Made by a program: the position numbers and the translations under genes. The notes below the pieces were generated by a model. It saw nothing but the letters and a program-made list of their open reading frames with translations. It made no database searches and was not told where the DNA came from. 32,690 nucleotides of DNA, taken from Eubacteriales bacterium. GTDB lineage: Bacteria; Bacillota_A; Clostridia; Lachnospirales; Lachnospiraceae. How positions within the stretch are numbered: the stretch's first letter is position 1; each line of letters opens with the position of its first letter. Positions 2,453-16,979 of this stretch are shown here, in pieces. The stretch is from positions 1-32,690 of the forward strand of contig JAUNJL010000026.1 in assembly GCA_030533315.1 (NCBI GenBank). Reading direction: 5' to 3'.

Positions 2453-4396
2453 TTATATTCTATTGTTCAGTGCCTCCACCACATCCGGGAACATTCCTGT
2501 GTCCGTATGAGGAAGGAAGCAGGCCCCCACAAATTCATCCATATAGGTGGGAACGGTGGACAGCTCCATGTAAGTCATATTCGCCGCCAGCTGGTAGGTC
2601 TTCTTCTCCGCAGGCGTGGACAAAAGCATCATGTAGGCCCCCGTAAGGGAAGAGTTGCCGATGTAATGAAATTTTTCCAGGGGAATGTCGGGAAACATGC
2701 CGATGGTCACGGCATTTTTCATGTTGATACCGCTTCCGATGCCTCCCGCCACATACACGTCGTCGATCATGGACACGTCGAAATCCAGAGAGCCCAGCAT
2801 GGTGCGGATCGCCGAAAAAATGGCTCCCTTCGCCCGGATAAAGTTGTCAATGTCCACCTCCGTGATCTCCACGTCCTTCACCGATCCGGCTTCCTCCTGA
2901 AAGGCCAGGACGTAGCTTCCCATGCCGTATTCATCGTGGCGGATGCGCCTCCCCTCCCGGATGAACTTGCCCTTGGGATTGATGATGCCGCAGAGAAACA
3001 GCTCGCTGATCACGTCGATGATGCCGGAGCCGCACAGGCCCACCGGCTTCGTCCCCGGCTCGCCCACCACGGTAAAGGAAGGCTCCATGGTTTCTTTGTC
3101 GATGGTGCAGGCCTCGATGGCCCCGTCGGTGGCCCTCATCCCGCAGCTGATATCTCCGCCCTCAAAGGCCGGTCCGGCCGAGCAGGCACAGCTCATCATA
3201 AAATCACAATTGCCGAACACCAGCTCCCCGTTTGTCCCCAGGTCGATGAACAGGGAAAACTCCGGGCGGTTCCACAGCATACTCACCAAGGTTCCGGCGG
3301 TGATGTCACCGCCCACGTAGCTTCCGATGTTTGGCGCCATGATAATATGGGCGTCTCTATGGATATCAATCCCCACATCGGAAGCAAAAAGGGAATTGGT
3401 CTTGAAGAATGCGGGAATGTACGGCTCCATGCGCACCGGATCTGCATTGATCCCCGCAAACAGATGATTCATTGTCGTGTTGGATGCTACGCACATCCGA
3501 TAGATCTGGCTGGAGGGGACGCCAGCCGCCCTGCACATCTGGGCGATCATGGGATTGATGGTCTCCTTGATCACCGCATCCTGAAGCTTTTTCTTTCCTC
3601 CCGGCTTCTGCTGCTCGATGATCCGGTTGATCACGTCCGCTCCGTAACGGATCTGTCCATTCCCGGAGGAAGCCTTCGCAAGGATCTCCCCGTTTTCCAT
3701 ATTGACCAGTACCCCCGAAACCGTGGTGGTACCGATATCGATGGCAAGTCCCCCTACCACCAATTCCTTGTCCTTTTCCAAAACGTCGTACACAAACATG
3801 TCGTTTGGCGTGGTACGAAGGACGCATTTTACCTGATAATCGCTGCTTCGGAGCACGTCCGGCAGCTTTTTCAGCACGGAATATGGAATCCGCACCTGTC
3901 TCAGATTCATGAATTTTTTCAGCGCCCGAGTCAGGCGCTCATTGTCCGGCATCGTATCATCCAGAGTTGGGGGCTTCATCTGAAGCTCCACCACGTCCAG
4001 ACTGTTCCGCAGTTCAATACCGGTATCGCTGATCTCTGTCTTTGCATGTTCAAAAATGGCGATTTCCTCTTTGGAGCTCAGATCTGCCACCTTCATCCTG
4101 CTCTTATAAGCAGAAGCGATATCTGGCACAAGCACCGTCACGTCCCCGCAGATCCTGCTGACACAGGCAAGACGCCAGCCCTTCTCAAAATCCTCCTCCT
4201 GGATATGAAGAGTGCGCTTGCTGTCCAGCTCTCCCTCCTTCAGCTGCACCCTGCACTTTCCACAGGAAGCATTTCCGGAGCAGGGAGCGTCGATGGCCAC
4301 ATTGGCCTCTCTGGCGATCTCCAGCAACTGATCCCCCGCATTGGCATATGTCTCTACCACACCGCCGTTTTCAAATGTAAATGTCACCTTGAACAT
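2453..4396 (-). CDS. acsV: Corrinoid reductive activator RACo (ferredoxin-ASKHA ATPase)
   Basis: Uses ATP to return inactive Co(II) corrinoid iron-sulfur protein to the methyl-accepting Co(I) state. The 647-residue protein has an N-terminal plant-type [2Fe-2S] ferredoxin domain with Cys39, Cys45, Cys48 and Cys78, a linker to about residue 200, and a C-terminal ASKHA-type domain with AIDIGTTTVSG, LFIDLGTNGEL, CSAGPAFEGGDI, LCGSGIIDVI and VYVAGGIGSG motifs. The start is the ATG at 4396: AAAGGTGG lies five bases upstream, inside a TTG-initiated extension of six codons that is unlikely to be used. It stands 38 bases after a strong intrinsic terminator that follows acsE, so it is probably made by read-through at a lower level than its substrate, which suits a repair enzyme needed in catalytic amounts. 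Confidence 0.93.
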   Translation of the reverse strand: MFKVTFTFENGGVVETYANAGDQLLEIAREANVAIDAPCSGNASCGKCRVQLKEGELDSKRTLHIQEEDFEKGWRLACVSRICGDVTVLVPDIASAYKSRMKVADLSSKEEIAIFEHAKTEISDTGIELRNSLDVVELQMKPPTLDDTMPDNERLTRALKKFMNLRQVRIPYSVLKKLPDVLRSSDYQVKCVLRTTPNDMFVYDVLEKDKELVVGGLAIDIGTTTVSGVLVNMENGEILAKASSGNGQIRYGADVINRIIEQQKPGGKKKLQDAVIKETINPMIAQMCRAAGVPSSQIYRMCVASNTTMNHLFAGINADPVRMEPYIPAFFKTNSLFASDVGIDIHRDAHIIMAPNIGSYVGGDITAGTLVSMLWNRPEFSLFIDLGTNGELVFGNCDFMMSCACSAGPAFEGGDISCGMRATDGAIEACTIDKETMEPSFTVVGEPGTKPVGLCGSGIIDVISELFLCGIINPKGKFIREGRRIRHDEYGMGSYVLAFQEEAGSVKDVEITEVDIDNFIRAKGAIFSAIRTMLGSLDFDVSMIDDVYVAGGIGSGINMKNAVTIGMFPDIPLEKFHYIGNSSLTGAYMMLLSTPAEKKTYQLAANMTYMELSTVPTYMDEFVGACFLPHTDTGMFPDVVEALNNRI

Positions 4397-4433
4397 GGCA
4401 ACCACCTTTCTCAACTACCGCTTTCCTATAGAC

Positions 4434-4464
4434 AAAAAGGGCTGAGACCGAAGCCCCAGCCCTT
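4434..4464 (-). terminator. Intrinsic terminator with UUCG loop between acsE and acsV
   Basis: On the minus strand AAGGGCTGGGGC and GTCTCAGCCCTT form a 12-bp stem (two G-U pairs) closed by a TTCG tetraloop, followed immediately by a T-run (CCCTTTTTGTC). This is a textbook factor-independent terminator inside the acetogenesis locus. Confidence 0.85.
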
Positions 4465-4519
4465 CAAAGGCTGCCGTCCACGGATACCCGATGAACCATA
4501 ACCTTTAAAATCCCTCGCC

Positions 4520-4537
4520 CTGACGCCCCGGCGCCAG
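4520..4537 (-). other. Hairpin just after acsE
   Basis: CTGGCGCC and GGCGTCAG (one G-U pair) form a compact stem 10 bases beyond the acsE stop codon, followed on the transcript by GGCGAGGGATTTT. It forms a tandem with the stronger terminator 55 bases downstream and may protect the acsE 3' end or assist termination. Confidence 0.45.
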
Positions 4538-4547
4538 ACCCCTGGGA

Positions 4548-5333
4548 TCAGAGCTCCAAATAGGAATCTGCGTACAGGGTGTTGCCCTTGAACACGTCGC
4601 AGGATTTGATCGTCTCCATGAGACGGCGGTCATTCGGATTGACGATGGCGGACGTCAGTCCCTGCATCATGGCCATGGCTACCAGGGCGGAGTCCATGAT
4701 GGGACGGATGGCCTTTGGCATACCGTTGCTGTTGTTGGACAGACCGCCGGTGGAGTTCAAGCCCATGTCGGAGAACATTTTGATGGCCTCAAGAACCTCC
4801 ATCTGCTTGTCCTGCATTCCCTTTACCACCAGGAACAGAGGATCGAACCAAAGATCCGTAGGCTCCATACCATGCTCCATACCTCTCTCAAGAAGAGTCT
4901 GGCAGTACATCATACGCTCGTCATTGTCCTTTGCGATGCCCTCGCCGTTGCAAAGAGCGATCACGATGGCGTCATTTGCGGCCGCAAGATCCACGTACTC
5001 GATCCTGCCTGCTGCATCAGCGGAGTTTACGATGGGTTTTCCCTTTGCACGGTTGTACACGGAAATACCAGCCTCGATCGCTTTTTTGTTTGCGGTATCC
5101 AGGGCCAGCGGAACATTGTCAAAGTTCTCCTGAAGAAGCTTCACAACCCACTTCATCAGATCCTCTCCATCGCTCTCAGCCGGTCCGATGTTCACGTCAA
5201 GGTAAACGGCGCCGGCGTCCAGCTGCTCCTTCGCCCTCTTCAGAATGGGCTCAGGGTCTCTCTCGGTAAACGCTTTGTTGACTGCCGGTGCTGTGGTGGA
5301 AAGTCTCTCCCCGATTGTAACAAATTTAGCCAT
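4548..5333 (-). CDS. acsE: Methyltetrahydrofolate:corrinoid/iron-sulfur protein methyltransferase
   Basis: Transfers the methyl group of 5-methyl-THF to Co(I) of the corrinoid iron-sulfur protein, joining the methyl branch to acetyl-CoA synthesis. The 261-residue protein is full length for this TIM-barrel pterin-binding family (about 262 in Moorella). Candidate substrate-binding residues align by motif with those of the Moorella enzyme: Asp79 in LALDTANKKAIE, Asn103 in IVNSADA, Asp163 in LWFDPLF and Asn199 in GGLSNNSNG. The start has AAAGGAG upstream of ATG. It is the third gene of an apparent acsD-acsC-acsE unit: its own gap to acsC carries an interspersed structured repeat, and a strong terminator follows it. 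Confidence 0.96.
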   Translation of the reverse strand: MAKFVTIGERLSTTAPAVNKAFTERDPEPILKRAKEQLDAGAVYLDVNIGPAESDGEDLMKWVVKLLQENFDNVPLALDTANKKAIEAGISVYNRAKGKPIVNSADAAGRIEYVDLAAANDAIVIALCNGEGIAKDNDERMMYCQTLLERGMEHGMEPTDLWFDPLFLVVKGMQDKQMEVLEAIKMFSDMGLNSTGGLSNNSNGMPKAIRPIMDSALVAMAMMQGLTSAIVNPNDRRLMETIKSCDVFKGNTLYADSYLEL

Positions 5334-5493: not shown

Positions 5494-6837
5494 TTAGTTC
5501 ATATCCTTTAAGAATTTTACAAGCTGGACGGCTTCTCTTGGTCCGACGATGATCTCCCATCCCGGAAGCTTGGACTCCAGGTCACCCTTCAGAACGGCCA
5601 CCTTTCCAGGGATCACCAGTCTCCTGCTCTTCACCTTGGGCTCCACGTTTTCCTTGATGTAGGCGGCAATGCTGGTGCCGGAGAATTTGCCTGCGGCCCA
5701 GGACGTCAGCACGGAAAGACCTCCTGCGTCGTTGATCACCAGATTCAGCGGAACGCCGGAACGCTCCAGCTCGCCGGATACCAGGAAATATGTAAGTGCG
5801 AAGTCTACCGTCGTGACCACCACGGAATTTTCATCTGCACCGTTCATGGGATAGATGCCCGGCTCCACCCTCATGGGCTTCTGCGGGTCGGTGAACACGT
5901 TCTGGCGAAGTCCGTATAGCGCCAAAGCCTCTGCATAGGTCATGCGGTCCATCACGATGACGGAGCCGTACTTCATGGTAAACACGGCGGCAAGGGCGGC
6001 CTGCAGATGGGCGTCCCCGTCAGCCAGCCCGCAAAGGTTCACGATGGAGGGATAGCCGAAGGTTCTGTCCTGATCCTTCAGGGCTGCCCGGCGAACCTGA
6101 ACGGCGTTCCCAAAGGTCTCCTTGATGGTCGCTCCGGTCACGTCCAGGATCAGGTTCTTATTCCCCAGCTTCTCCAGGGCGGCCACGGTGTCATACAGCT
6201 CGTTCAGATCTTTTCCGGAAACTCCCAGAACGACCCCTGCTGCCGAAGCCACGGCGCTCATAGCCTCATAGTTGGACGCATCGGCGCCGTTCAGGACGGG
6301 CTTTCCATCCTTGCAGATCTCCAGGGCGGCCTTTGCGATCTCCACATCCTTACAGCCCAATACCAGCGTTCTGCCAAGGGCGGCCGCCTTGGTCACCAGG
6401 GCCGTATACCCTGCGGCGTCCGTGCCCTCTGCGCAGTCCACATATATCAGCTCGGTGTACATCCTCTCACCGATCCGGTCATAATCCACGGTGGGAATCT
6501 CCGCCAGCTTCGCATCATTCTGTGCGTCGTCCATACCGGTGCTCACAAGAACCGCATATCTCGTCTTGCTCACAAAGGTCTTCTCATGCCTAAACAGAAC
6601 GGTCTCGCCTCCAAGAGTCATCTCCTCGCTGCCAGCCCCGATCTTGATGGATTTCATCGGCGGAGCGGTGGCCTCGGAAAGAGCGGCGATTGCATCGTCA
6701 GACATGTAAGGACACTGGTCGATCTGCATGGAACCCTGTGCAACCTTCATGGAGAAAGCCATGCAGGTGGGACAACCGCATTCTTTACAGTTTTTCTTTG
6801 GTGTCAATTTGAAGATCTGAATACCATTCAGTGCCAT
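5494..6837 (-). CDS. acsC: Corrinoid iron-sulfur protein, large (gamma) subunit
   Basis: With AcsD forms the corrinoid iron-sulfur protein that carries the methyl group from AcsE to acetyl-CoA synthase. The 447-residue protein has an N-terminal [4Fe-4S] domain with Cys17, Cys20, Cys25 and Cys42, the same spacing as in the Moorella protein, then a TIM-barrel domain and a C-terminal cobalamin-binding domain with GGLSVLTSWAAGKFSG-type sequence near residue 380. GGAGGAAGAAAGATATG gives the start. It begins 18 bases after acsD ends, so the two subunits are translated from one message in near-equal amounts. The 160-base gap to acsE is unusual for this locus and is explained by the repeat element. 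Confidence 0.97.
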   Translation of the reverse strand: MALNGIQIFKLTPKKNCKECGCPTCMAFSMKVAQGSMQIDQCPYMSDDAIAALSEATAPPMKSIKIGAGSEEMTLGGETVLFRHEKTFVSKTRYAVLVSTGMDDAQNDAKLAEIPTVDYDRIGERMYTELIYVDCAEGTDAAGYTALVTKAAALGRTLVLGCKDVEIAKAALEICKDGKPVLNGADASNYEAMSAVASAAGVVLGVSGKDLNELYDTVAALEKLGNKNLILDVTGATIKETFGNAVQVRRAALKDQDRTFGYPSIVNLCGLADGDAHLQAALAAVFTMKYGSVIVMDRMTYAEALALYGLRQNVFTDPQKPMRVEPGIYPMNGADENSVVVTTVDFALTYFLVSGELERSGVPLNLVINDAGGLSVLTSWAAGKFSGTSIAAYIKENVEPKVKSRRLVIPGKVAVLKGDLESKLPGWEIIVGPREAVQLVKFLKDMN

Positions 6838-6855
6838 ATCTTTCTTCCTCCTATA

Positions 6856-7797
6856 TTACACAAGTTCTTTGATCAATTTTGCGATGGTGGCGACAGACCT
6901 CGGATGTCTCAGGATCACGGCGTCAGAACCGGAAACCAGGTCTGCGGCCGCTGTCATAACCTCCATGTCAATCCCTCGCTGGTCAGCGGGACCCCACTCA
7001 GGCATGTCTTCCTCGGAAGCGACGGCCTCCTTCACGCCCCAGGTCTCACTGGATACTGGTGTAATAATAGGCATCTGCAGCATATTGTCATTCTGCGACA
7101 GCGCTGCGCCCCGGATACGGTCCATGGTAGAAACCACATACTCATATCCGTAGCCGACAGATGCGGTACCTACGTTCATCACGATCTTTTTCGGGTCAAC
7201 GCCCAGCTGCGTGGTCACAACGTTCAGCTGCTTTGCCAGGTTGATATCGTCTGCGGACTCAGCGCCCACGATCTGATTGTAGGCAAGTCCGGCAGCCGCA
7301 CCGATGGCCTTGTAGTTCTCTTCCTTCTCGGACATCACCACAACGTTTCTGCCCTGAAGAACCTCTGCAACCTTGGGGAGAAGTTCCGCATCCTTCTCCA
7401 CGTTCTTGCAGCCCTCCACGACCAACGGACAATCAATGGCGTCCGCAACCTCTTTTACCACTGCGATCAACTCGTCAACTGATTTGTTCACCCCGTTTGG
7501 ATCTCCGCCATCCAAAACCAGGGCCACGAAATCTGCCCCCTCCATGGCAGCCGCCTTCTTTGCGATCTCGGCCATGGTGGAAGCGCCTTCGTAGTAAGCC
7601 CGGATACCGGGAGTAAACTCCTCCAGGCCCATATCGGTGATCTCTACGCCGATCTTCGGCGCATTCTCGGTGGGAGCATCGAAGGTATAGAAGGGAAATG
7701 TGGAATTGCCTCCTACGGTGATGGTCTTCTCCCCGCTTCCGATTGTGACGGTGTTAATCTTTGCGTTGAACTTTTGTGGTTTCTGATTAAACGGCAT
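6856..7797 (-). CDS. acsD: Corrinoid iron-sulfur protein, small (beta) subunit
   Basis: TIM-barrel partner of AcsC in the corrinoid iron-sulfur protein; it helps hold the cobamide between the subunits. The 313 residues are close to the Moorella length (about 323). Typical sequence includes TVTIGGSG-like TVTIGSGEKTITVGG near residue 17, VGVEITD-type IGVEITDMG near 49, and EAVASEEDMPEWG near 260. AAGGAGGCTAACGAGAAATG gives a clear start. The 151-base gap upstream contains a strong promoter beginning 16 bases after acsB ends, so acsD is the first gene of a sub-transcript acsD-acsC-acsE in addition to read-through from the main operon. Confidence 0.96.
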   Translation of the reverse strand: MPFNQKPQKFNAKINTVTIGSGEKTITVGGNSTFPFYTFDAPTENAPKIGVEITDMGLEEFTPGIRAYYEGASTMAEIAKKAAAMEGADFVALVLDGGDPNGVNKSVDELIAVVKEVADAIDCPLVVEGCKNVEKDAELLPKVAEVLQGRNVVVMSEKEENYKAIGAAAGLAYNQIVGAESADDINLAKQLNVVTTQLGVDPKKIVMNVGTASVGYGYEYVVSTMDRIRGAALSQNDNMLQMPIITPVSSETWGVKEAVASEEDMPEWGPADQRGIDMEVMTAAADLVSGSDAVILRHPRSVATIAKLIKELV

Positions 7798-7948: not shown

Positions 7949-10078
7949 TTACATCATAGGCTCAAGGGCAAGGGCCGGATGGCCTTTTTCCGTCAGGAAC
8001 CCTACCAGCGTCTCGGGATCCGTGGCAACGGTCTCATCACCGATCATATCTGTGAAGTTCTCGATCCCGTAAAGCTCCTTCGCTGAAGCGTTCAGTCTCT
8101 CCGCAACGAACTCCTTCAGCTCCTTGGGCATCCAAACAATACGCTCGATACCGCCCTCGGCCTTCATGAACTTCTTGGAGGCGATGAAGTGCTTTCCATG
8201 GCCCATGAATCCAGGCGTCTGCACACCGCCGCCGGTCATGGAGGCCATCTCCGGGAAGGTCATTCCAAGAGGAGTCATGCCGGAATACTCACGGTTTGCG
8301 ATCACCACACCGTTGGAGAAGGGCTCGATACCGCAGATACACTCAAAGCATCCACAGGAGGTCATGGGATCCTGCATGATGGAGTACAAGGTCACGTGCT
8401 CCAGGGCGCCCTGGGAGAACTTCTGAACAGCCTCGTCCACGTCCTCGTATGCTCCAAGATCTTCGTCGATGGGACGCTCCTTGGTGATCCTCTGGCAGGG
8501 GCCATTGGGATCCAGCTCGTTGGTAGCCTTTGCGTCCAGCCAGGAAACGGCTCCGCAAAGTCCCAGTCTCTCCGGCGTCACCACGCACACGTGGGAGGGG
8601 GAGAATGCCTGGCAGAGGATGCAGCTATAATATACGTCCACAGACTCGTCTGTCAGGTTGGCAAGACGGTCGTCACGCTTGTTGAAGATGGGAACGGCCA
8701 CCTCATGGCGGATCCTGGTACATTCTGCCGGATCTGTGTAGATCACCACCTCGCACTTGTCAACGATGGCGTCATACTCGTTCTTGATCTGAGTGTAAAG
8801 AACCTCGCCGATGTGCTTCACACGGAAGCCGGCGTCAAATGCGGCGTGGCTGATACGGATACGCTGCATATCCCTCTGTCCCGTGTGGTAAACACCCTCG
8901 ATACAGTTGATGTAGTTGTGGAATTTACGCTCAATAACCGGCTCGAAGTCGGGCTGCATGTTCTTTCCAGCAACCTTCACCACATAGGCGATGCTGTTCT
9001 TGCTGCCGTCCTCCATGTCGTCCACCTCCGGACCCACAACGGTGATCTTGTGATCCTCGATCTCGGAAGCGTCGCAGGTCTGTACCAGCTCTGCGCAGTC
9101 CACTCGGGATCCGTCGAACTCCACCCTCATATCCTTACGGCGGATGATCTCACCCTCAAAGGCAGATGCAAAGGCCACGGGGATGTCGATGGTGGTAATC
9201 TTGATCTTGATGTCCCGGGCATCCAGGGAGGTGGCGTTAAACTTGCTCACGTCCTCCTGAACGATCAGGCTCTTCGGCACACGGAAGATGTTCTCGGTCT
9301 CATTTGTGATAACCGGGAAACCCAGGGCGATGGCTCCTGCGCCGCAGGCCACGATCACGTCGTCCAAAGGCTTGAAGGCGTTCACGAAGGCGGGAACCCT
9401 CTCCATGGTATATTTCATCAGGGTACCGGCATCTCCAGGAGTCACGTTGCCGAAGATCAAGGCTGCGCGGAGGGCGACGGAAACCACGTGGATCACGGCA
9501 GTCACGTCCTTGCCAAGGGGGATCACACGCACGTTGGCCCCCGTGTTCATTCCAGCCTCATGTACCTGGTCGATAACGCCTCCCACCAGGGTCACCAGCA
9601 TACCCTGTGCCTGGTAGCTTTTCACCAATGCCACAGCCTCCTCCACAGTGGGAGCGGCCCCCAGGATAACGGCCACGCCTGGGATATCCCCCGTTACAAG
9701 GGGAACGCCCAGCTCACGGATCACGGCGTCGGGAAGATGGCCATAGCAGGGCTCCTCGTAGGGAGATGCGCCGTCCATATACTTCAGAACCTCAATGAAC
9801 TCTGCGCAAAGTGCGGTGGCAACACCGGACATAAACGCGTCGTTCAATCTTTTTTCTCTCGTCATCAGAGTCTTCACTACCCCGAGAGCCTCCTTCAGCT
9901 CCTTCAGGGTGGTGACCTTTGTGCCTGTCACAGAATAGTAGCAGGGAAGACTGTAAGCTGTGTTGGGGAAGCTTACGGCCTTGTCCTCGCCGTGCTGGGC
10001 GATGGCGGCATCGATTGCGCCCTCTGTCAATCCATATACGGCATCATTTCCGCTGAATACTCTATCAAATAAAGTCAC
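7949..10078 (-). CDS. acsB: Acetyl-CoA synthase (CODH/ACS alpha subunit)
   Basis: Condenses CO, the methyl group from the corrinoid protein and CoA into acetyl-CoA at the Ni-Ni-[4Fe-4S] A-cluster. The 709-residue protein carries all A-cluster ligands: Cys486, Cys489, Cys498 and Cys508 for the cubane and Cys575-Gly576-Cys577 for the distal nickel, each exactly 20 positions below the Moorella numbering, so the N-terminus is about 20 residues shorter. Translation starts at GTG (10078), preceded by AGGAGGTATAAAA. It follows cooC by 24 bases and is followed by a new promoter for acsD. The full N-terminal CODH-contact domain appears present, so the bifunctional CODH/ACS complex with CooS/AcsA is expected. 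Confidence 0.98.
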   Translation of the reverse strand: MTLFDRVFSGNDAVYGLTEGAIDAAIAQHGEDKAVSFPNTAYSLPCYYSVTGTKVTTLKELKEALGVVKTLMTREKRLNDAFMSGVATALCAEFIEVLKYMDGASPYEEPCYGHLPDAVIRELGVPLVTGDIPGVAVILGAAPTVEEAVALVKSYQAQGMLVTLVGGVIDQVHEAGMNTGANVRVIPLGKDVTAVIHVVSVALRAALIFGNVTPGDAGTLMKYTMERVPAFVNAFKPLDDVIVACGAGAIALGFPVITNETENIFRVPKSLIVQEDVSKFNATSLDARDIKIKITTIDIPVAFASAFEGEIIRRKDMRVEFDGSRVDCAELVQTCDASEIEDHKITVVGPEVDDMEDGSKNSIAYVVKVAGKNMQPDFEPVIERKFHNYINCIEGVYHTGQRDMQRIRISHAAFDAGFRVKHIGEVLYTQIKNEYDAIVDKCEVVIYTDPAECTRIRHEVAVPIFNKRDDRLANLTDESVDVYYSCILCQAFSPSHVCVVTPERLGLCGAVSWLDAKATNELDPNGPCQRITKERPIDEDLGAYEDVDEAVQKFSQGALEHVTLYSIMQDPMTSCGCFECICGIEPFSNGVVIANREYSGMTPLGMTFPEMASMTGGGVQTPGFMGHGKHFIASKKFMKAEGGIERIVWMPKELKEFVAERLNASAKELYGIENFTDMIGDETVATDPETLVGFLTEKGHPALALEPMM

Positions 10079-10102: not shown

Positions 10103-10867
10103 CTAATCCAGTTCGATCTTATCCTTGATCTTTTTGATCTCAGCGATCACTGTCTCACTGAAATCATAAGGTGATTTTCCCTGACGGTCCGCATCCATCA
10201 CCTCCGTATTGTAATGGATGATCCCAAGAAGATCCTCCTGGGGGATGCGTTCCCTAACGAAAGCCTCGTCATCCTCGTTTCTCACCTTGTTTGCCACAAC
10301 CTTCACCTGGGTGACCCCCAGGTCCTTTGCAAGGCGCTTCACGTTCTTGTAGGTCTGAACGCTTCTCGCACCAGGTTCAATGACCACGATGAAAGCATCC
10401 ATGCTCTCCGTCGTCCCCCTGGCAAGGTGCTCCAGCCCTGCCTCCATATCCAGAATGACCACGTCGTCCCTGTGAAGCACCAGGTTGTTGATGATCCTCT
10501 TCAGCATCACGTGCTCCGGGCAGACACAGCCGCCGCCCCCTGTCTCCACTGTTCCCAGGACAAGGAGCCGGACGCCGTTTGCCATCTTTCCGTAAGCGTC
10601 AGGGATGTCATCCACCTTTGGATTCAGCTTGTAAAACTGATTCTGGCTGTTGGCACCGGTACGCTCCTCCACCAGCTTACGCATACGGGAAATGGGAATG
10701 ATGGAGTCCAGCGTCTCCTCGTCAAACCCCAGGGCCAGCCCCAGGTTTGCGTCAGGATCCACGTCCGCCGCCAGCACATGCTTCCCTTCCGCCGCATACA
10801 TCCTGGCCAATATGGCCGCAAAGGTTGTCTTTCCTACTCCGCCCTTACCGGTTACTGCGATTTTCAT
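10103..10867 (-). CDS. cooC: CODH/ACS nickel-insertion ATPase, CooC family (copy 1)
   Basis: A 254-residue MinD/SIMIBI-type ATPase that delivers nickel to CO dehydrogenase or acetyl-CoA synthase. It has the deviant Walker A GKGGVGKTT at residues 7-15 with its signature lysine, a Walker B/switch region VVILDMEAGLEHLARG near 134, and the metal-binding Cys114-x-Cys116 pair in GGGGCVCPE that bridges the dimer in characterised CooC. The gene lies between cooS and acsB. In Moorella the homologue beside acsB is called AcsF; which of the two CooC proteins here serves AcsB is not decided by sequence, but the adjacency to acsB favours this one. GAGAGG lies 11 bases before the ATG, a somewhat long spacing. 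Confidence 0.93.
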   Translation of the reverse strand: MKIAVTGKGGVGKTTFAAILARMYAAEGKHVLAADVDPDANLGLALGFDEETLDSIIPISRMRKLVEERTGANSQNQFYKLNPKVDDIPDAYGKMANGVRLLVLGTVETGGGGCVCPEHVMLKRIINNLVLHRDDVVILDMEAGLEHLARGTTESMDAFIVVIEPGARSVQTYKNVKRLAKDLGVTQVKVVANKVRNEDDEAFVRERIPQEDLLGIIHYNTEVMDADRQGKSPYDFSETVIAEIKKIKDKIELD

Positions 10868-11013: not shown

Positions 11014-12906
11014 TCAGATTCCAAGAGCGTCTCTCTTCTCCTCGATCCTCTCGATCATCCGATCTCCCAATTTATCAATATCCTTCTCCACGGTGTATGC
11101 GGCCTCTACCCAATCCCGGATACCCTCCGTGAGGAGACCGGCAACCTCAGAAGAACCAGATACGTACGGATCCACCCCAAGGAAGGTGTCAAGTCCGGTA
11201 GCGACCACGTAGTTGCCGATGGACACAGCCTTCTCGGACATCCACTCAGGAGCACATCCCACAACAGGAAGCTGGGAGATGTTCAGGCCGGAATCCTTGG
11301 CCAGCTCTGCGGCCAGTACCATCATACGGCTGATATCCACGCAGGAGCCCATGTGGAGCACCGGCGGAATGTCTGCCAGCTCACAGACCCTCTTCAGGCC
11401 GGCTCCGCAGAGATCCTTCGCCGCCTTGTCCATCAATCCTGCCCGGGCAGCCGCCTGTGCGGAGCAGCCGGAGGCAATGATGATGATGTCGTTGGCAAGA
11501 AGCTTCTTCATCAGCTCAATGTGGGCGAAGTCCGCTCTCACCTTGGGGTTGTTGCAGCCTACCATGGCCACGGCTCCCCGAAGGACGCCGGAGGTGATGC
11601 ACTCGATGAGAGGCTTCGTGGTACCGGTCTCGTCTACCTGGGAATTGGTAACCCCGTCCAGAACCTTTACAATGGCCTCTGTGGAATATCCCACCGTCGC
11701 CTTCTGCTTCATATCCGGAATATGTACCAGCTCCGGCTTTCTGTTCTTAAAGTTCTCGATTGCGGTCTTTACAATGAGCTTCGCGGTCTCCCCTGCGTTT
11801 GTAGAATCAAAGCGGATAAAATCGGAATCCGGCATCTGGGCGATGGGGGAGGTGGTGATGAACTTGGTGTGGAAGCACTTGGACAGAGGCCCTAATGCCG
11901 GGAAAATACACTGAACATCCACCACGATGGCCTCGCAGGCTCCTGTCAGGACCACGTTCTCCTGCTGAAGGAAGTTTCCGGCCATGGGAATGCCCCGGCG
12001 CATGGCAACCTCGTTGGAGGTACAGCAAACACCGGAGATGGTGATGCCCTTAGCGCCCATGGACTTGGCATAGTCGATCATTTCCTTGGAGTCCGCATAC
12101 TCGCAGATCATCTCGGAAAGGCTGGGATCATGTCCGTGAACCACGATGTTTACGTTTTCTGCGTTCATGACTCCCAGGTTCGCCTCGGTGTCTATCGGCT
12201 TCGGCGTCCCGAAGAGAACGTCGGAAAACTCGGTGCCGCACATGGAGCCGCCCCATCCATCGGAAAGACCGTTTCTCAAAGCCTGGCGAATCAGCGCCTC
12301 CGGCTTGCTGGAGTTACCCATGTGAGTCATATGCAGTGCGCAGGAAACCTCACGGTCGATGGCTCTTGGCTCGATCTCTGCCTTGTGCCACAGATCCTGT
12401 GTATGCTGAGGAGCTCTTTTTAACCAACGGGAGTGACCTTTGATCTTTCCGTACTCCTCCTGAGCCAGCTCAGACATTTCATGAGCGAGATCATAGATGT
12501 CTCTGCCCTCTGTCTCTACGCCCCACTCCTTAGCGATACGGATCAGCTTCTCAGGATCCTTTACCTGATAATCGCCGTCCGGCTTCGCATGGCTTAAGGT
12601 GATGCAGATTTCACGGCCATGGTCAGAATGGGTGGCAGCGCCGCCTGCTGTAAAACGAAGGAAGTTTCTTCCTACGATACCGTGTACATCGCATCCGCAG
12701 ATCCCCCTGGGGGCCTTCGGGGTCACCCGGCAGGGTCCCATGGAGCAGATACGGCAGCAAACGCCCTGCTCGCCAAACTTACAGTGGGGAGTCTGGTTCT
12801 TTACCCTCATCTGCCAGGAATCTGCGCCTACCCTTGCGCCGGTCTCCAGAAGACGCTCAGTGGCGGCCTCAAATTCCTCCACTGTCGTTAATTTAAATTC
12901 GCTCAT
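11014..12906 (-). CDS. cooS: Anaerobic Ni-Fe carbon monoxide dehydrogenase (CODH/ACS beta subunit)
   Basis: Reversibly reduces CO2 to CO, feeding acetyl-CoA synthase; also called AcsA. The 630-residue protein has the D-cluster cysteines Cys42 and Cys50, the B-cluster cysteines Cys51, Cys54, Cys59 and Cys70, and the C-cluster signatures in order: HGHDP (histidine ligand), GVCCTSNE, VDVQCIFPAL, VGCNNP, SGCSAQ and MGSCVD. The B-cluster loop is three residues shorter than in the Moorella enzyme. The gene sits between two cooC genes and upstream of acsB, so it is the ACS-linked CODH rather than a stand-alone one. AAAGGAGGACTATATTACCATG gives the start with a long spacer of about 11 bases. The 243-base gap upstream carries two stable hairpins. 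Confidence 0.97.
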   Translation of the reverse strand: MSEFKLTTVEEFEAATERLLETGARVGADSWQMRVKNQTPHCKFGEQGVCCRICSMGPCRVTPKAPRGICGCDVHGIVGRNFLRFTAGGAATHSDHGREICITLSHAKPDGDYQVKDPEKLIRIAKEWGVETEGRDIYDLAHEMSELAQEEYGKIKGHSRWLKRAPQHTQDLWHKAEIEPRAIDREVSCALHMTHMGNSSKPEALIRQALRNGLSDGWGGSMCGTEFSDVLFGTPKPIDTEANLGVMNAENVNIVVHGHDPSLSEMICEYADSKEMIDYAKSMGAKGITISGVCCTSNEVAMRRGIPMAGNFLQQENVVLTGACEAIVVDVQCIFPALGPLSKCFHTKFITTSPIAQMPDSDFIRFDSTNAGETAKLIVKTAIENFKNRKPELVHIPDMKQKATVGYSTEAIVKVLDGVTNSQVDETGTTKPLIECITSGVLRGAVAMVGCNNPKVRADFAHIELMKKLLANDIIIIASGCSAQAAARAGLMDKAAKDLCGAGLKRVCELADIPPVLHMGSCVDISRMMVLAAELAKDSGLNISQLPVVGCAPEWMSEKAVSIGNYVVATGLDTFLGVDPYVSGSSEVAGLLTEGIRDWVEAAYTVEKDIDKLGDRMIERIEEKRDALGI

Positions 12907-13149: not shown

Positions 13150-13920
13150 TTATAAACCGAGCCTTTCCACGATCCCCCGAAGAGCCTCCTTCACCGGATT
13201 GTCCTGGGGAAGACTGGCCGTGGGCCGTCCCTCGCAGTCGTACTCGTACACGGCGTCGTTGTGAGGAACCACCCCGATCAGGTTTAGTCCCTGAATCTGG
13301 ATCTCCTCCCGGATCCCATCATTCAGCTCTCCTTTGGGAGCCCGGTTCACGATCAGGCCTATCGTATCCGGATGCATACCGCACTCCTGGATCAGCTGGG
13401 CGATCCGTCCAACCGCCTGGATGCCTCTTCTGGAGCAATCGCTCACCAGGATCGCCGTCTGCATATAAGGAAGCACGCCCCGGCTGATATGCTCCATACC
13501 TGCCTCATTGTCCACCACGATATAGGGATAGTTGCTCTGATACTTTGTAAGCTGATTCTGGAGAAGCCCGTTGACATAGCAATAGCAGCCCTTCCCCTGG
13601 GTACGCCCCATCACAAGAAGATCAAAATCGTCCTCCTCCACCAGGGCATCCTCAAAACGCATTTCCGCATAATCCGCCTTGGACATTCCTGCCGGAATGG
13701 GGTTTTCCTTGGACAGCTCCGCCTGTGCGATCTCCTCCCGGACCTCACCTAGAGTGGTCTCCACCTTCACCCCAAGAACCTCGTTCAGGTTGGAGTTTGC
13801 GTCAGCGTCCACCGCAAGCACCGGTCCCTTCTTCTGCTCACAAAGATACTGGATCAGCATTCCACATAAAGTGGTTTTTCCAACGCCGCCTTTTCCTGCG
13901 ACAGCAATCACATGTGCCAT
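13150..13920 (-). CDS. cooC2: CooC-type nickel-insertion ATPase (copy 2)
   Basis: A 256-residue SIMIBI ATPase distinct from the other CooC in this locus. It has Walker A GKGGVGKTT at residues 9-17, DADANSNLNE near 38, and a Cys112-x-Cys114 pair in GKGCYCYVNG, the candidate nickel site. IVVDNEAGMEHISRG is the switch II region. The C-x-C segment is bounded differently from copy 1 (GKGCYCYVN against GGGGCVCPE), and overall the two differ throughout, so this is an old paralogue and not a recent duplication. It lies directly upstream of cooS, the arrangement of dedicated CODH maturation genes. AGGAGG lies 11 bases before the ATG. Confidence 0.92.
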   Translation of the reverse strand: MAHVIAVAGKGGVGKTTLCGMLIQYLCEQKKGPVLAVDADANSNLNEVLGVKVETTLGEVREEIAQAELSKENPIPAGMSKADYAEMRFEDALVEEDDFDLLVMGRTQGKGCYCYVNGLLQNQLTKYQSNYPYIVVDNEAGMEHISRGVLPYMQTAILVSDCSRRGIQAVGRIAQLIQECGMHPDTIGLIVNRAPKGELNDGIREEIQIQGLNLIGVVPHNDAVYEYDCEGRPTASLPQDNPVKEALRGIVERLGL

Positions 13921-13984: not shown

Positions 13985-14917
13985 CTACACAAGGGTGCAG
14001 AGGCCGGATCTGTCGATAATCTCAGATACATCCTTCCATTTATTCAGAGCATACAGATGGATCCCGTCCACGCCCAGAGCCCTGTATTCGTCAAGCTGCT
14101 TGATGGTGTACTGGATCCCCTCCTCCTTGAAGCGTTTTACCTTGTCCTCGTAGAATAGGTCGAAGGGCTTTCCATCTCCGTCCTTCGCTGCAAAGGGGTT
14201 GGGGAACAGCCAGTTGCGGGAGATCAGTCTGCAAAGCTCCCGATCCATCACGCATCCATTGCGGGAGAGCGCCATGTTGATGGTGGCCGCCTGATCCAGA
14301 ATCGGCATAACACCCACGTCCACCGGCATGGTCACGCCCGCCCTGCGGATGGCGTCCAGCCAGTACTTGAACTGCTCCATGTCCCAGCAAAGCTGCGTCA
14401 TGATGTAGTCGGCCCCATTGTCCTGCTTCTGCTTCAGTACGGCGATGTCTGATTCCAGGCTGCGGCAGGAAATGTGTCCCTCGGGGGAGCCGGCCACCGC
14501 AATCTCAAACTTGTCGCCAAACTCATCCCGGACAAATTTCACAAGATCCGTCGCATACTCAAAATCTCCGCAGGTCGTGGTCTCTCCAAGCGGGATGTCT
14601 CCCCTGAGAGCCAGCATGTGATCCACGCCCTCTGCCAGGTACTGCTCCAGCTGCTCCTTGATCCCCTCCTTGGTGTTCTTGATCACGGTAAAATGCGTCA
14701 CGGGGATGGTACCCGCCTCCCGGATCATCTGGCAGACCTCCCGGTTCGCCCCTACATTGCCGCCGCCGGCCCCATATGTACAGGAAATATAAGCAGGCCT
14801 GTACTTCATCAGGTGGTCGATGGTGCCAGGAAGATTCTCCATGCCCTTTTCTGTTTTTGGGGGAAACAGCTCAAAAGAAAGGAGTGTTTTTTCTTTCATT
14901 GCTTCTGACAGTTTCAT
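13985..14917 (-). CDS. metF: 5,10-methylenetetrahydrofolate reductase
   Basis: Flavin TIM-barrel enzyme that reduces methylene-THF to methyl-THF, the last reduction of the methyl branch. The 310 residues include the N-terminal LSFELFPPKTEKG signature (residues 13-25), a TYGAGG-type segment CTYGAGGGNVGANRE near 46, and LALRGDIP near 102. GGAGGTAAGCAACTATG gives the start. It lies between cooT and cooC2. No metV or rnfC2 partner gene is adjacent, unlike Acetobacterium or Moorella. The stand-alone arrangement agrees with the single-subunit-type NADH-dependent enzyme reported for Peptostreptococcus (now Blautia) productus, so NADH is the likely donor; that is inference from context. Confidence 0.95.
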   Translation of the reverse strand: MKLSEAMKEKTLLSFELFPPKTEKGMENLPGTIDHLMKYRPAYISCTYGAGGGNVGANREVCQMIREAGTIPVTHFTVIKNTKEGIKEQLEQYLAEGVDHMLALRGDIPLGETTTCGDFEYATDLVKFVRDEFGDKFEIAVAGSPEGHISCRSLESDIAVLKQKQDNGADYIMTQLCWDMEQFKYWLDAIRRAGVTMPVDVGVMPILDQAATINMALSRNGCVMDRELCRLISRNWLFPNPFAAKDGDGKPFDLFYEDKVKRFKEEGIQYTIKQLDEYRALGVDGIHLYALNKWKDVSEIIDRSGLCTLV

Positions 14918-15034: not shown

Positions 15035-15217
15035 TCAGCCGCAGTCCACCTTCACAACGCTGTTGGCAAGATCCACCATAAGGAGCCTGCCCTCCACCAC
15101 CTTCTCGTCTCCCAGGATATCCCGGATGATCAGCTTATCTCCATCCACATCGATGCGGCTGACGTTCTTAAAGATCACAGAGTCATCACTCTCTTTATAA
15201 ACGGTTGCAAGACACAT
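15035..15217 (-). CDS. cooT: CooT-family nickel-binding protein
   Basis: A 60-residue protein starting MCLATVY, the hallmark of CooT, in which Cys2 takes part in nickel binding by the dimer in the Rhodospirillum rubrum protein. The rest is a small SH3-like beta fold with charged strands. It is believed to help nickel reach CO dehydrogenase; the precise step is unsettled in the family. AGGAGGTGACAAAATATG is an excellent ribosome-binding site. It is placed between the His-rich gene and metF in the operon that contains cooC2 and cooS, so it is dedicated to CODH/ACS maturation. Confidence 0.9.
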   Translation of the reverse strand: MCLATVYKESDDSVIFKNVSRIDVDGDKLIIRDILGDEKVVEGRLLMVDLANSVVKVDCG

Positions 15218-15323: not shown

Positions 15324-15722
15324 TCACTGCTTCATTTCATCCTTCACGAGGGTGAGGGCAAGGCTCAGGCGCATGTTCGCCTTCTGAAAATCCGCCACGC
15401 TCTCCCGAATGGTCTTCGCCGCCGTATCCATCCCCAGCTTTGCGATATTCTCCGCCATCTGGTCCAGCTCCGCAGCATGATGTTCATTGTGCTGGAGCAT
15501 GTAGATCAGCAGGGCCACCGTCTCATTCCTGCAATCTCCGCCCTGACAGCTTCCGCAGTGGCTGCCGCAGGCCTCTCCCTCCGTGTGAGTGTGCTCATGT
15601 CCCTCACCGTTCTCGTGGGAATGGGGATGGCTGTGAGCCACACCGTCTCCGTGGGTATGTGTATGGGTATGCTCATGCCCGTGAGGCACCAGATTCCCAT
15701 TTTCGTCCTTGATCAAATGCAT
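15324..15722 (-). CDS. His/Cys-rich putative nickel chaperone or store, CooJ-like in role
   Basis: The 132-residue protein is two-part. Residues 14-55 hold 14 histidines, mostly as H-x-H repeats with acidic and small residues between, followed by a cysteine cluster at Cys52, Cys56, Cys59 and Cys64. Residues 66-132 are an amphipathic helical domain with a further His motif (LQHNEHHAAEL) and no membrane segment. It is the first gene of the acetogenesis operon, directly before cooT, so nickel binding for CODH/ACS assembly is the natural inference; zinc or cobalt are alternatives. In Rhodospirillum the cooCTJ genes include a His-rich CooJ, but there the His-rich part is C-terminal. I do not recognise the C-terminal domain. 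AAAGGAGCGGTCATG supports the start. Confidence 0.8.
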   Translation of the reverse strand: MHLIKDENGNLVPHGHEHTHTHTHGDGVAHSHPHSHENGEGHEHTHTEGEACGSHCGSCQGGDCRNETVALLIYMLQHNEHHAAELDQMAENIAKLGMDTAAKTIRESVADFQKANMRLSLALTLVKDEMKQ

Positions 15723-15785
15723 GACCGCTCCTTTCCGCTCCCCTCAAAAAGACGAGCTCATGACAAGAATTTATCAATTTCCCTT

Positions 15786-15814
15786 ATTATACAACCATTC
15801 CACCTCTTTCGCAA
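15786..15814 (-). promoter_or_regulatory. Main promoter of the Wood-Ljungdahl operon
   Basis: Minus strand TTGCGA (four of six), 17-base spacer, TATAAT (perfect), giving a leader of about 57 bases before the His-rich gene. Confidence 0.75.
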
Positions 15815-15997
15815 GAAAATTATCGTACATTTCAACAAAAAAATTCCCGCAAAAAGGCACCCCAAGGACAGGCAGATCTCCCCCGCCATTCTCCTCTCTT
15901 CAACGGTGGAAAAAGCAGGATCAGATGGAAAATACAAGGGGGCGGAAAGGCTCCAGGAGCCCTCCCAAGGTCTTTTCCTTCACCCCGCCCTTCCTAT

Positions 15998-16015
15998 TTG
16001 TTAATGTTTTAACAA
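15998..16015. promoter_or_regulatory. Rex operator, perfect consensus
   Basis: TTGTTAATGTTTTAACAA matches the Rex consensus TTGTTAA-N4-TTAACAA exactly, and the symmetry extends one pair further on each side (15997-16016). Rex is the NADH/NAD+-sensing repressor of Firmicutes. The site is about 90 bases upstream of the reductase -10 and about 185 bases upstream of the operon -35, so it does not overlap either core promoter found here. Confidence 0.8.
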
Positions 16016-16103
16016 AAAACGTTCCCAATGCCCACGAACCTCCGGACAGCCCCTCCTTGTAGTAAAATTGTAACAGTTTTGATGTGATTCTTTCATATTT
16101 TTG

Positions 16104-16112
16104 TGTTATACT
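16104..16112 (+). promoter_or_regulatory. Extended -10 promoter of the aldo/keto reductase
   Basis: TGT-TATACT is an extended -10 element; no convincing -35 is seen at 16-18 bases. The leader would be about 35 bases. Confidence 0.55.
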
Positions 16113-16154
16113 GTGCCAGGCAATGATTTTAAAATGTATTGAGGAGGAATCATT

Positions 16155-16979
16155 TTGAGAAGAACTGTTTTTCTGAATAACGACAGAGAAATGCCTCTTT
16201 TAGGTCTTGGGGTATATAAAACAGAGGACAGCCAGGCCGAGACCGCCATCGCCTCCGCCGTGGAATGCGGTTACCGCCTGATCGACACAGCCTCTGCATA
16301 TAAAAATGAAGAAAGCGTGGGAAAGGCCATTGCAAAATGCGGCGTTCCCCGGAAGGAGCTTTTTATCACCAGCAAAATATGGAACAACGCACAGCGCCTG
16401 GGAGACGTGGAGGGCGCCTTCCATCGCAGCATGGAGCGTCTGAAGCTGGATTATCTGGATCTTTATCTCATCCACTGGCCCGTGCCCGGCTGCTATACCG
16501 GCACATGGACCGTCATGGAGAAGCTGCTGGAATCCGGCCAGGTGCTTTCCATCGGCGTCAGCAATTTCCAGATCCATCACCTGGAGGAGCTGAAAAAGGT
16601 TTCCGGCCTCGTCCCCGCCGTCAACCAGATCGAGTGCCATCCCCTATGCTATCCCAAGGAGCTTATCGAGTATTGCCAGGACGAGGGCATCCAGGTACAG
16701 GCCTATTCTCCTCTGGCAAGAGGAGCCTATTTTGACAATGACGTGATGTGCGTCCTGGGCACCAAGTATGTCCGCACCCCCGCCCAGATAGGGCTTCGAT
16801 GGGCCATCCAGAAGGGTATCGGGGTCATCCCAAAATCGGTCCATCCCGACAGGATCGCCGCCAACGCCCACATCTTCGACTTTACCATCCAGGAGGAGGA
16901 CATGGCCATCCTGGATACCCTCAACCAGGATTTCCACAGCGCCAGCATCCCCGAGGATCTTCGGGACGTGGCCTTCTGA
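16155..16979 (+). CDS. Aldo/keto reductase
   Basis: A 274-residue NAD(P)H-dependent carbonyl reductase of the AKR superfamily, complete. The catalytic tetrad is visible: Asp44 and Tyr49 in RLIDTASAY, Lys74 in FITSKIW, and His107 in YLIHWPV. The coenzyme end has IPKSVHPDRI, which usually binds the 2'-phosphate of NADPH. Substrate cannot be told from sequence; 2,5-diketogluconate/methylglyoxal-type reductases are the closest general class. Translation starts at TTG, placed seven bases after GAGGAGG; no in-frame ATG lies close by. It stands alone on the plus strand between a Rex operator and a bidirectional terminator, so it may respond to redox state. Confidence 0.9.
   Translation: MRRTVFLNNDREMPLLGLGVYKTEDSQAETAIASAVECGYRLIDTASAYKNEESVGKAIAKCGVPRKELFITSKIWNNAQRLGDVEGAFHRSMERLKLDYLDLYLIHWPVPGCYTGTWTVMEKLLESGQVLSIGVSNFQIHHLEELKKVSGLVPAVNQIECHPLCYPKELIEYCQDEGIQVQAYSPLARGAYFDNDVMCVLGTKYVRTPAQIGLRWAIQKGIGVIPKSVHPDRIAANAHIFDFTIQEEDMAILDTLNQDFHSASIPEDLRDVAF

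Follow-up and report, generated by a model that had tools for sequence, protein, structure and literature searches.

The analyzed window, i.e., the whole 32,690-nt stretch of contig JAUNJL010000026.1, contains a Wood-Ljungdahl (CODH/ACS) gene cluster read leftwards and a divergently oriented aldo/keto reductase gene, with a palindrome, here called O2, located between them. Leftwards from this palindrome, the cluster encodes a His-rich protein, followed by cooT, a metF-like gene, a CooC-like gene, cooS, a second CooC-like gene, acsB, acsD, acsC, acsE, and acsV. The genes are listed below, beginning with the reductase:

16155..16979, plus strand: divergent aldo/keto reductase, DkgA-like, below the equivalog cut-off (Pfam PF00248)
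15324..15722, minus strand: first gene of the operon, His-rich 132-aa protein, with no Pfam family at E 0.001
15035..15217, minus strand: cooT, CO dehydrogenase accessory protein (Pfam PF10133)
13985..14917, minus strand: metF-like methylenetetrahydrofolate reductase (Pfam PF02219; TIGR00676 below cut-off)
13150..13920, minus strand: CooC-like P-loop ATPase (Pfam CbiA/AAA_31; no NCBIfam match)
11014..12906, minus strand: cooS/acsA, CO dehydrogenase (Pfam PF03063)
10103..10867, minus strand: second CooC-like ATPase (Pfam CbiA)
7949..10078, minus strand: open reading frame which we take to be acsB, acetyl-CoA synthase
5494..7797, minus strand: acsC (5494-6837) and acsD (6856-7797), corrinoid protein subunits (Pfam CdhD in both)
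2453..5333, minus strand: acsV (2453-4414) and acsE (4548-5333) (NCBIfam NF040756 and NF040758)

The AcsB proteins of the window and of B. glucerasea (locus L002) share 94% identity, which points to an organism of the Blautia group. The AcsB of the window served as the query for the loci of relatives, of which 79 (72-94% identity) were kept. The Wood-Ljungdahl genes presumably form one transcript. The gene of the His-rich protein (15324-15722) adjoins cooT in many relatives as well, and a nickel-handling role of its product is plausible. A search of the window against Rfam gave no family at the gathering score.

The following elements were distinguished between the two divergent genes:

15760..15777, strand not applicable: O1, candidate Rex-type operator ATGACAAGAATTTATCAA (read on the strand of the operon, TTGATAAATTCTTGTCAT), spanning roughly +3 to +20 of the operon
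15786..15791, minus strand: predicted -10 box of the operon, TATAAT (promoter scan)
15809..15814, minus strand: predicted -35 box of the operon, TTGCGA, with a 17-bp spacer (promoter scan)
15840..15997, strand not applicable: stretch between the promoter and O2 (G+C 54%), holding the extra DNA of the window
15998..16015, strand not applicable: O2, upstream Rex-type palindrome TTGTTAATGTTTTAACAA, supported by an exact consensus match, an adhE-trained matrix and weaker versions in relatives
16104..16112, plus strand: predicted extended -10 TGTTATACT of the reductase promoter (sequence inspection; similar boxes in the alignment of relatives)

The preliminary description of this DNA had placed a perfect Rex box at 15998-16015, and both the letters (TTGTTAATGTTTTAACAA) and the coordinates proved to be exact. 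O2 is also, as claimed, an exact match to TTGTTAANNNNTTAACAA, the Rex consensus of Clostridia (Ravcheev 2012, as quoted in excerpts of PMC5367854 and PMC12044746). It is the sole match to this consensus in the window at up to three mismatches, while 100 shuffled windows held on average 0.39 such matches, with at least one in 35 of them. A perfect match is expected 1.8e-5 times per window (first-order Markov estimate), and none appeared in 60 simulated windows. The palindrome in the window is not a chance match to the consensus.

A rex gene, which had been named as a prerequisite, was present in all 12 genomes of relatives tested, and presumably the organism of the window carries one too. The closest PDB entry to B. 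glucerasea Rex is 3wg9 (E 7e-79), presumably the Rex protein of Thermoanaerobacter ethanolicus, and the two are identical over 25 residues of the N-terminal part (VTASQIRQDLNNFGGFGQQGYGYNV). Directly before rex itself, no Rex-type site was found in the 12 rex loci; two one-mismatch sites there both lie inside an ORF. The strict pattern TTGTTAANNNNTTAACAA was rejected as a regulon finder, since in the 12 genomes it was not enriched over the reversed control (no perfect places, and 20 one-mismatch places vs 32). The looser pattern TTGAYAANNNNTTRTCAA, with up to one mismatch, gave 88 places vs 42 for the reversed control in the same 12 genomes. In 23 of 30 loci (taken from 41 adhE matches), the region upstream of adhE contains a perfect copy of a related form, TTGWYAA-N4-TTRWCAA. 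This form also occurs in the vicinity of L-ldh, fhs, and focA, and a copy with one mismatch is close to a cooS gene on another contig. The adhE boxes (e.g., TTGACAAATGATTAACAA) combine an O1-type and an O2-type half-site. In the upstream regions of adhE in L242-L271, up to four Rex-type boxes were seen in a recurring layout, some of them with the overlapping pair TTGATAAATATTTAACGTTAATCATTTAACAA.

A matrix was trained on 41 distinct sites from adhE promoters only, the form used for picking them (up to two mismatches) having come from inspection of the looser-pattern matches listed. With this matrix, 18 of 29 fhs upstreams (30 loci without L295, which lies at a contig end) exceeded the 99% shuffle level; the shuffles of this test, like those of the O1-zone, O2-zone, and half-site tests described below, permuted single bases. 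All counts from relatives are weakened because sister species are not independent. Among 20 identified flank proteins, chosen among the matches listed rather than covering every flanking gene, 12 are redox, fermentation or one-carbon proteins (one pckA included), and eight are without an obvious function in redox or one-carbon metabolism. Several genomes (e.g., G003, G004, G009, G020, and G024) carry two fhs copies, one of them approximately 13-16 kb from the His-rich gene, and no Rex-type box was found upstream of three fhs copies near the Wood-Ljungdahl operon (L283, L285, and L297). Another palindrome, TTGTCAAWTTGTTGTCAA, is near-identical in L119, L120, L135, L137, and L138; the L120 copy lies immediately downstream of a gene homologous to lysine-tRNA ligase genes, and the palindrome may be a terminator or a site of another factor.

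A scan of positions 15700-16200 supported the operon promoter and revealed no terminator in that region. Since eight bases lie between O1 and the predicted TATAAT box, O1 spans approximately +3 to +20, and so has the overlap with the core promoter/start that is expected of a Rex operator, with respect to the predicted promoter. O1 scored 15.7 bits with the adhE-trained matrix, which is at the low end (4 of the 41 training sites score lower), and has one mismatch to TTGWYAA-N4-TTRWCAA. Its palindrome is kept across the intergenic regions of relatives. The extent of this conservation was counted in a scan that did not assume O1 (59 loci and the window, with L069 and L072 dropped), because the 60 regions used for the O2 zone and its palindrome pairs, the perfect-core phase, and the half-site words had been picked by an O1-like pattern. 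Within 130 bp of the first gene, 49 of these 60 upstreams, window included, had a best site above the 99% level of the shuffles (in L018 and L067, O1 falls outside the 130-bp zone), and 44 of the 60 had ATTATA (plus strand) at a distance of 25-29 bp from where the best site starts. Strong Rex-type boxes near the gene start (e.g., TTGTTAAGATTTTGACAA) are also present in L029, L040, L046, L049, and L054, where the reductase was not found. O1 is thus a repressor-like site at the operon start that the preliminary description lacked. That description had regarded the position of its Rex box as atypical. O2 does lie clear of both predicted core promoters (i.e., the -10/-35 of the operon and the extended -10 of the reductase) and overlaps no start, so the remark is true of O2 alone, but the puzzle is largely resolved by the operator O1 at +1.

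O2 itself scored 21.0 bits, higher than most of the 41 training sites. In relatives that keep both genes, its perfect form, the conservation of which had been proposed as a check, is absent (0 of 44, with one mismatch in L019), but many of them have a weaker Rex-type element: the O2 zone often holds weaker GTTA-N6-TAAC palindromes, in several cases as a pair exactly 20 bp apart. Of 60 regions, window included, 41 had a best matrix match, at 60-260 bp from the -10 box, that scored above the 95% level of the shuffles; 39 of the 41 have this match 95-149 bp from the -10 box, and the window has it at 212. In the other 19 regions the match was absent or under the 95% level. Among the nearest relatives by AcsB for which data were available, L003 alone passed the 95% level (12.2 bits), and L001, L002, L004, L006, L007, and L075 remained under it; among the seven nearest by the His-rich protein, L152, L156, and L157 passed and L153, L154, L155, and L158 failed.

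The tandem form of O2 (up to one mismatch) was found at 19 places in 64 genomes (48 of them with the His-rich gene), 15 of which, including all eight perfect ones, are at the Wood-Ljungdahl operon; it is the location alone that is enriched, as the reversed control gave 17 places in total. A stricter 38-bp pair (up to three mismatches) occurred at eight places, seven at the operon and one before a hydC-like gene, vs none for the control. Two of the four off-operon tandem places (L188 and L195) are near genes without an evident link. Directly before the gene at L183:1552 in genome G020 (loci L183/L216/L223) there is a Rex-type palindrome pair 20 bp apart; this gene is predicted (Pfam) to encode a thioredoxin-like 2Fe-2S protein and is followed by a Nuo51-type gene, an order which we take to represent hydC and hydB of a bifurcating hydrogenase. 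As a general tandem target hydC was rejected, since of 19 hydC-like loci L223 alone has two listed sites 20 bp apart. In L186 (genome G009), at about position 1501, a tandem GTTA-N6-TAAC with one mismatch is located approximately 170 bp upstream of a gene in which a C-terminal domain of methylene-THF reductase is fused to RnfC and Nuo51 domains (Pfam).

The half-site words GTTA and TAAC upstream of the operon follow a 10-bp period. In 50 of the 60 regions, left after removal of similar ones, none of 500 shuffles was as strong for both words together, and six and two of 500 were as strong for the single words. Compared with the adhE boxes, the O2 versions are less strict at position 7; at positions 4 and 5 they agree with these boxes in the choice of A/T and C/T (TTGATA, TTGTCT, TTGACT).

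These features bear on the question of which protein would recognize O2. Sites of CRP have a 5-6-5 layout, and the TGTTA-N6-TAACA of O2 fits it, so that O1 might be a Rex operator and O2 be bound by another factor, e.g., a CRP/FNR-type activator acting from upstream. The laxer position 7 of the O2 versions and the occurrence of the doubled 20-bp form mostly at the Wood-Ljungdahl operon suit this possibility, and a preference for one phase relative to the -10 box (see below) would fit an activator too. Nevertheless, we consider it unlikely, given that at positions 4 and 5 the O2 versions follow the choices of the adhE boxes, that the Rex motif of T. ethanolicus has the same N6 form (excerpts of PMC5886521), and that the hydrogenase-type gene of G020 is also preceded by a 20-bp pair, hydrogenases being Rex targets elsewhere (excerpts of PMC6391272).

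The preliminary description had allowed control of either side by O2, i.e., of the operon or of the reductase. This was not supported: in relatives, the spacing between the element and the operon promoter varies less than the spacing between the element and the reductase promoter. In 26 regions, each shorter than 700 bp and with a match of at least 7.8 bits, the distances from O2 to the operon -10 box took 17 distinct values (sd 30 bp; R 0.55-0.59 at periods of 10.0-10.6 bp; L067 was measured from a wrong -10 copy), whereas those to the reductase -10 box ranged from 24 to 403 bp (21 distinct values; sd 70 bp; R 0.19-0.27), the latter boxes having been chosen by a simple pattern, so that some may be wrong. 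In B. glucerasea, pckA lies between the O2 remnant and the reductase, and 119 bp still separate the remnant from the -10 box of the operon. This pckA gene (L002:2631-4235; NCBIfam TIGR00224 above cut-off) splits the divergent pair, and L001 has a long gap similar to that of L002. O2 does sit within a shared intergenic region, its start being 109 bp from the reductase -10 box in the window, yet the scatter of the distances and the B. glucerasea arrangement make it distinctly improbable that O2 controls the reductase, alone or together with the operon. The likely target of O2 is the Wood-Ljungdahl operon. From the earlier reading, the Rex-like site, the presence of rex in relatives, and the Wood-Ljungdahl target are supported, and the reductase side is not.

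In the window O2 is located approximately 212 bp from the operon -10 box, and the commonest spacing in relatives is 118 bp; the difference of approximately 94 bp is close to 9 turns of 10.4. The stretch 15840-15997 has a G+C content of 54% vs 30% in the flank 15761-15840. No copy of this extra DNA was found in the window or in the loci of relatives compared, and its RNA fold is no better than that of shuffles (z -0.65). Across 21 distinct O2-zone distances, periodicity within 5-20 bp peaks at 10.1-10.7 bp (R 0.45); random positions reached such a peak in 29 of 5000 trials in the 9.9-10.9 band and in 305 of 5000 at any period of 5-13 bp. For 34 perfect cores, sisters included, R was 0.67 at 10.4 but 0.54-0.59 over most of 9.5-11.5, and this set therefore says little on the period. 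As related species are not independent, the phase and distance figures are supportive rather than final.

It could also be argued that the palindrome of O2 arose by chance, the DNA being rich in A+T, and that O1 is the sole real operator, given the lack of the perfect form in the 44 relatives and the 19 of 60 regions with nothing above the 95% level. We regard this as very unlikely in view of the expectation of 1.8e-5 per window, the clustering of the matches in position although the matrix was built from another gene, and the half-site words at a 10-bp period, for which none of 500 shuffles was as strong for both together. Finally, the inverted repeat of O1 falls within the predicted 5' leader, but that O1 acts as an RNA hairpin at the transcript 5' end instead of a protein site is hardly credible, as the leader fold is no better than that of shuffles (z -0.06) and L022, L042, and L043 keep the DNA half-sites with the RNA pair broken (C opposite A).

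We propose that O1 and O2 are two Rex operators of the Wood-Ljungdahl (CODH/ACS) operon, providing NADH-relieved repression, and assign to this reading a probability of approximately 0.75. It is built on the sequences of the two sites, on their pattern in relatives, on their likeness to the adhE sites of the Blautia group, and on the presence of rex in relatives; from these we infer Rex binding, repression, and the response to NADH. At a low NADH/NAD+ ratio, Rex dimers would occupy O1 at the transcription start and O2 upstream, and transcription would be blocked. At high NADH, Rex would leave the DNA, and expression of the operon would accompany that of adhE, ldh, and fhs, so that electrons could be disposed of by reducing CO2. 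O2 would be an auxiliary operator preferring one helical phase to the promoter. Because O2 tends to lie on roughly the same helical face with respect to the promoter, O1 and O2 may act jointly, through cooperative binding or looping. A more specific form of this proposal, which we find possible but rather doubtful, is a phase-locked operator pair, in which Rex dimers on O1 and on the upstream array would bind jointly, looping the DNA or lining up in a row, and so make the NADH switch sharper than one site could. The upstream array would then offer one GTTA/TAAC half-site per helical turn, every 10 bp, and the window would have kept the phase despite approximately 94 bp of extra DNA (212 vs 118 bp).

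Species of Blautia are common gut acetogens. Judging from its sequence, a Blautia-type bacterium probably turns on its CO2-fixing operon as an electron sink at NADH excess. If Rex gates CODH/ACS along with adhE, ldh, and fhs, these fermenters would use the reduction of CO2 as an NADH-relief valve, in competition with the routes to ethanol and lactate and controlled by the same switch. Redox state, H2 supply, and acetate output would then be linked in a testable way. For Rex, action through a phased upstream element, if real, would be unusual.

In comparison with the Rex regulon of Clostridia, as far as it is presented in the excerpts cited above, O2 equals the consensus, and adhE and ldh are common targets; on the other hand, the boxes of the Blautia group are looser (TTGWYAA-N4-TTRWCAA), and strict sites are rare. 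The Rex protein of T. ethanolicus, which we take to be that of 3wg9, shares the 25 identical N-terminal residues, and the half-sites of its motif are N6-spaced as in O2. That motif, ATTGTTANNNNNNTAACAAT (excerpts of PMC5886521), is a single palindrome, whereas the operon of the Blautia group has a doubled upstream element and a putative operator at +1.

Excerpts of PMC7306483 state, citing Zhang 2014, that Rex regulates Wood-Ljungdahl enzymes in Clostridium, and report Rex-like motifs before the cooS2-ech1 and fdh clusters of Calderihabitans maritimus; the link between regulator and pathway is the same, though in other bacteria. Since Rex control of these enzymes had been stated earlier for Clostridium, the finding of O1 and O2 joins a known regulator-pathway link. 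A two-operator layout at a CODH/ACS operon was not found in the same excerpts of PMC7306483, and searches of the literature, at the level of listings and excerpts, for Rex with Blautia and for Rex with DNA looping gave no paper on a paired-operator arrangement. The nearest counterpart is adhE of Thermoanaerobacterium saccharolyticum, with two predicted Rex sites at -150 and -31 (Table 5 in the excerpts of PMC5886521): as in the window, one near and one distant site belong to one promoter, but neither phasing nor a doubled array is mentioned in those excerpts. Thus, the connection between Rex and the Wood-Ljungdahl pathway is already known, and it is the paired-site layout that is less expected and unusual.
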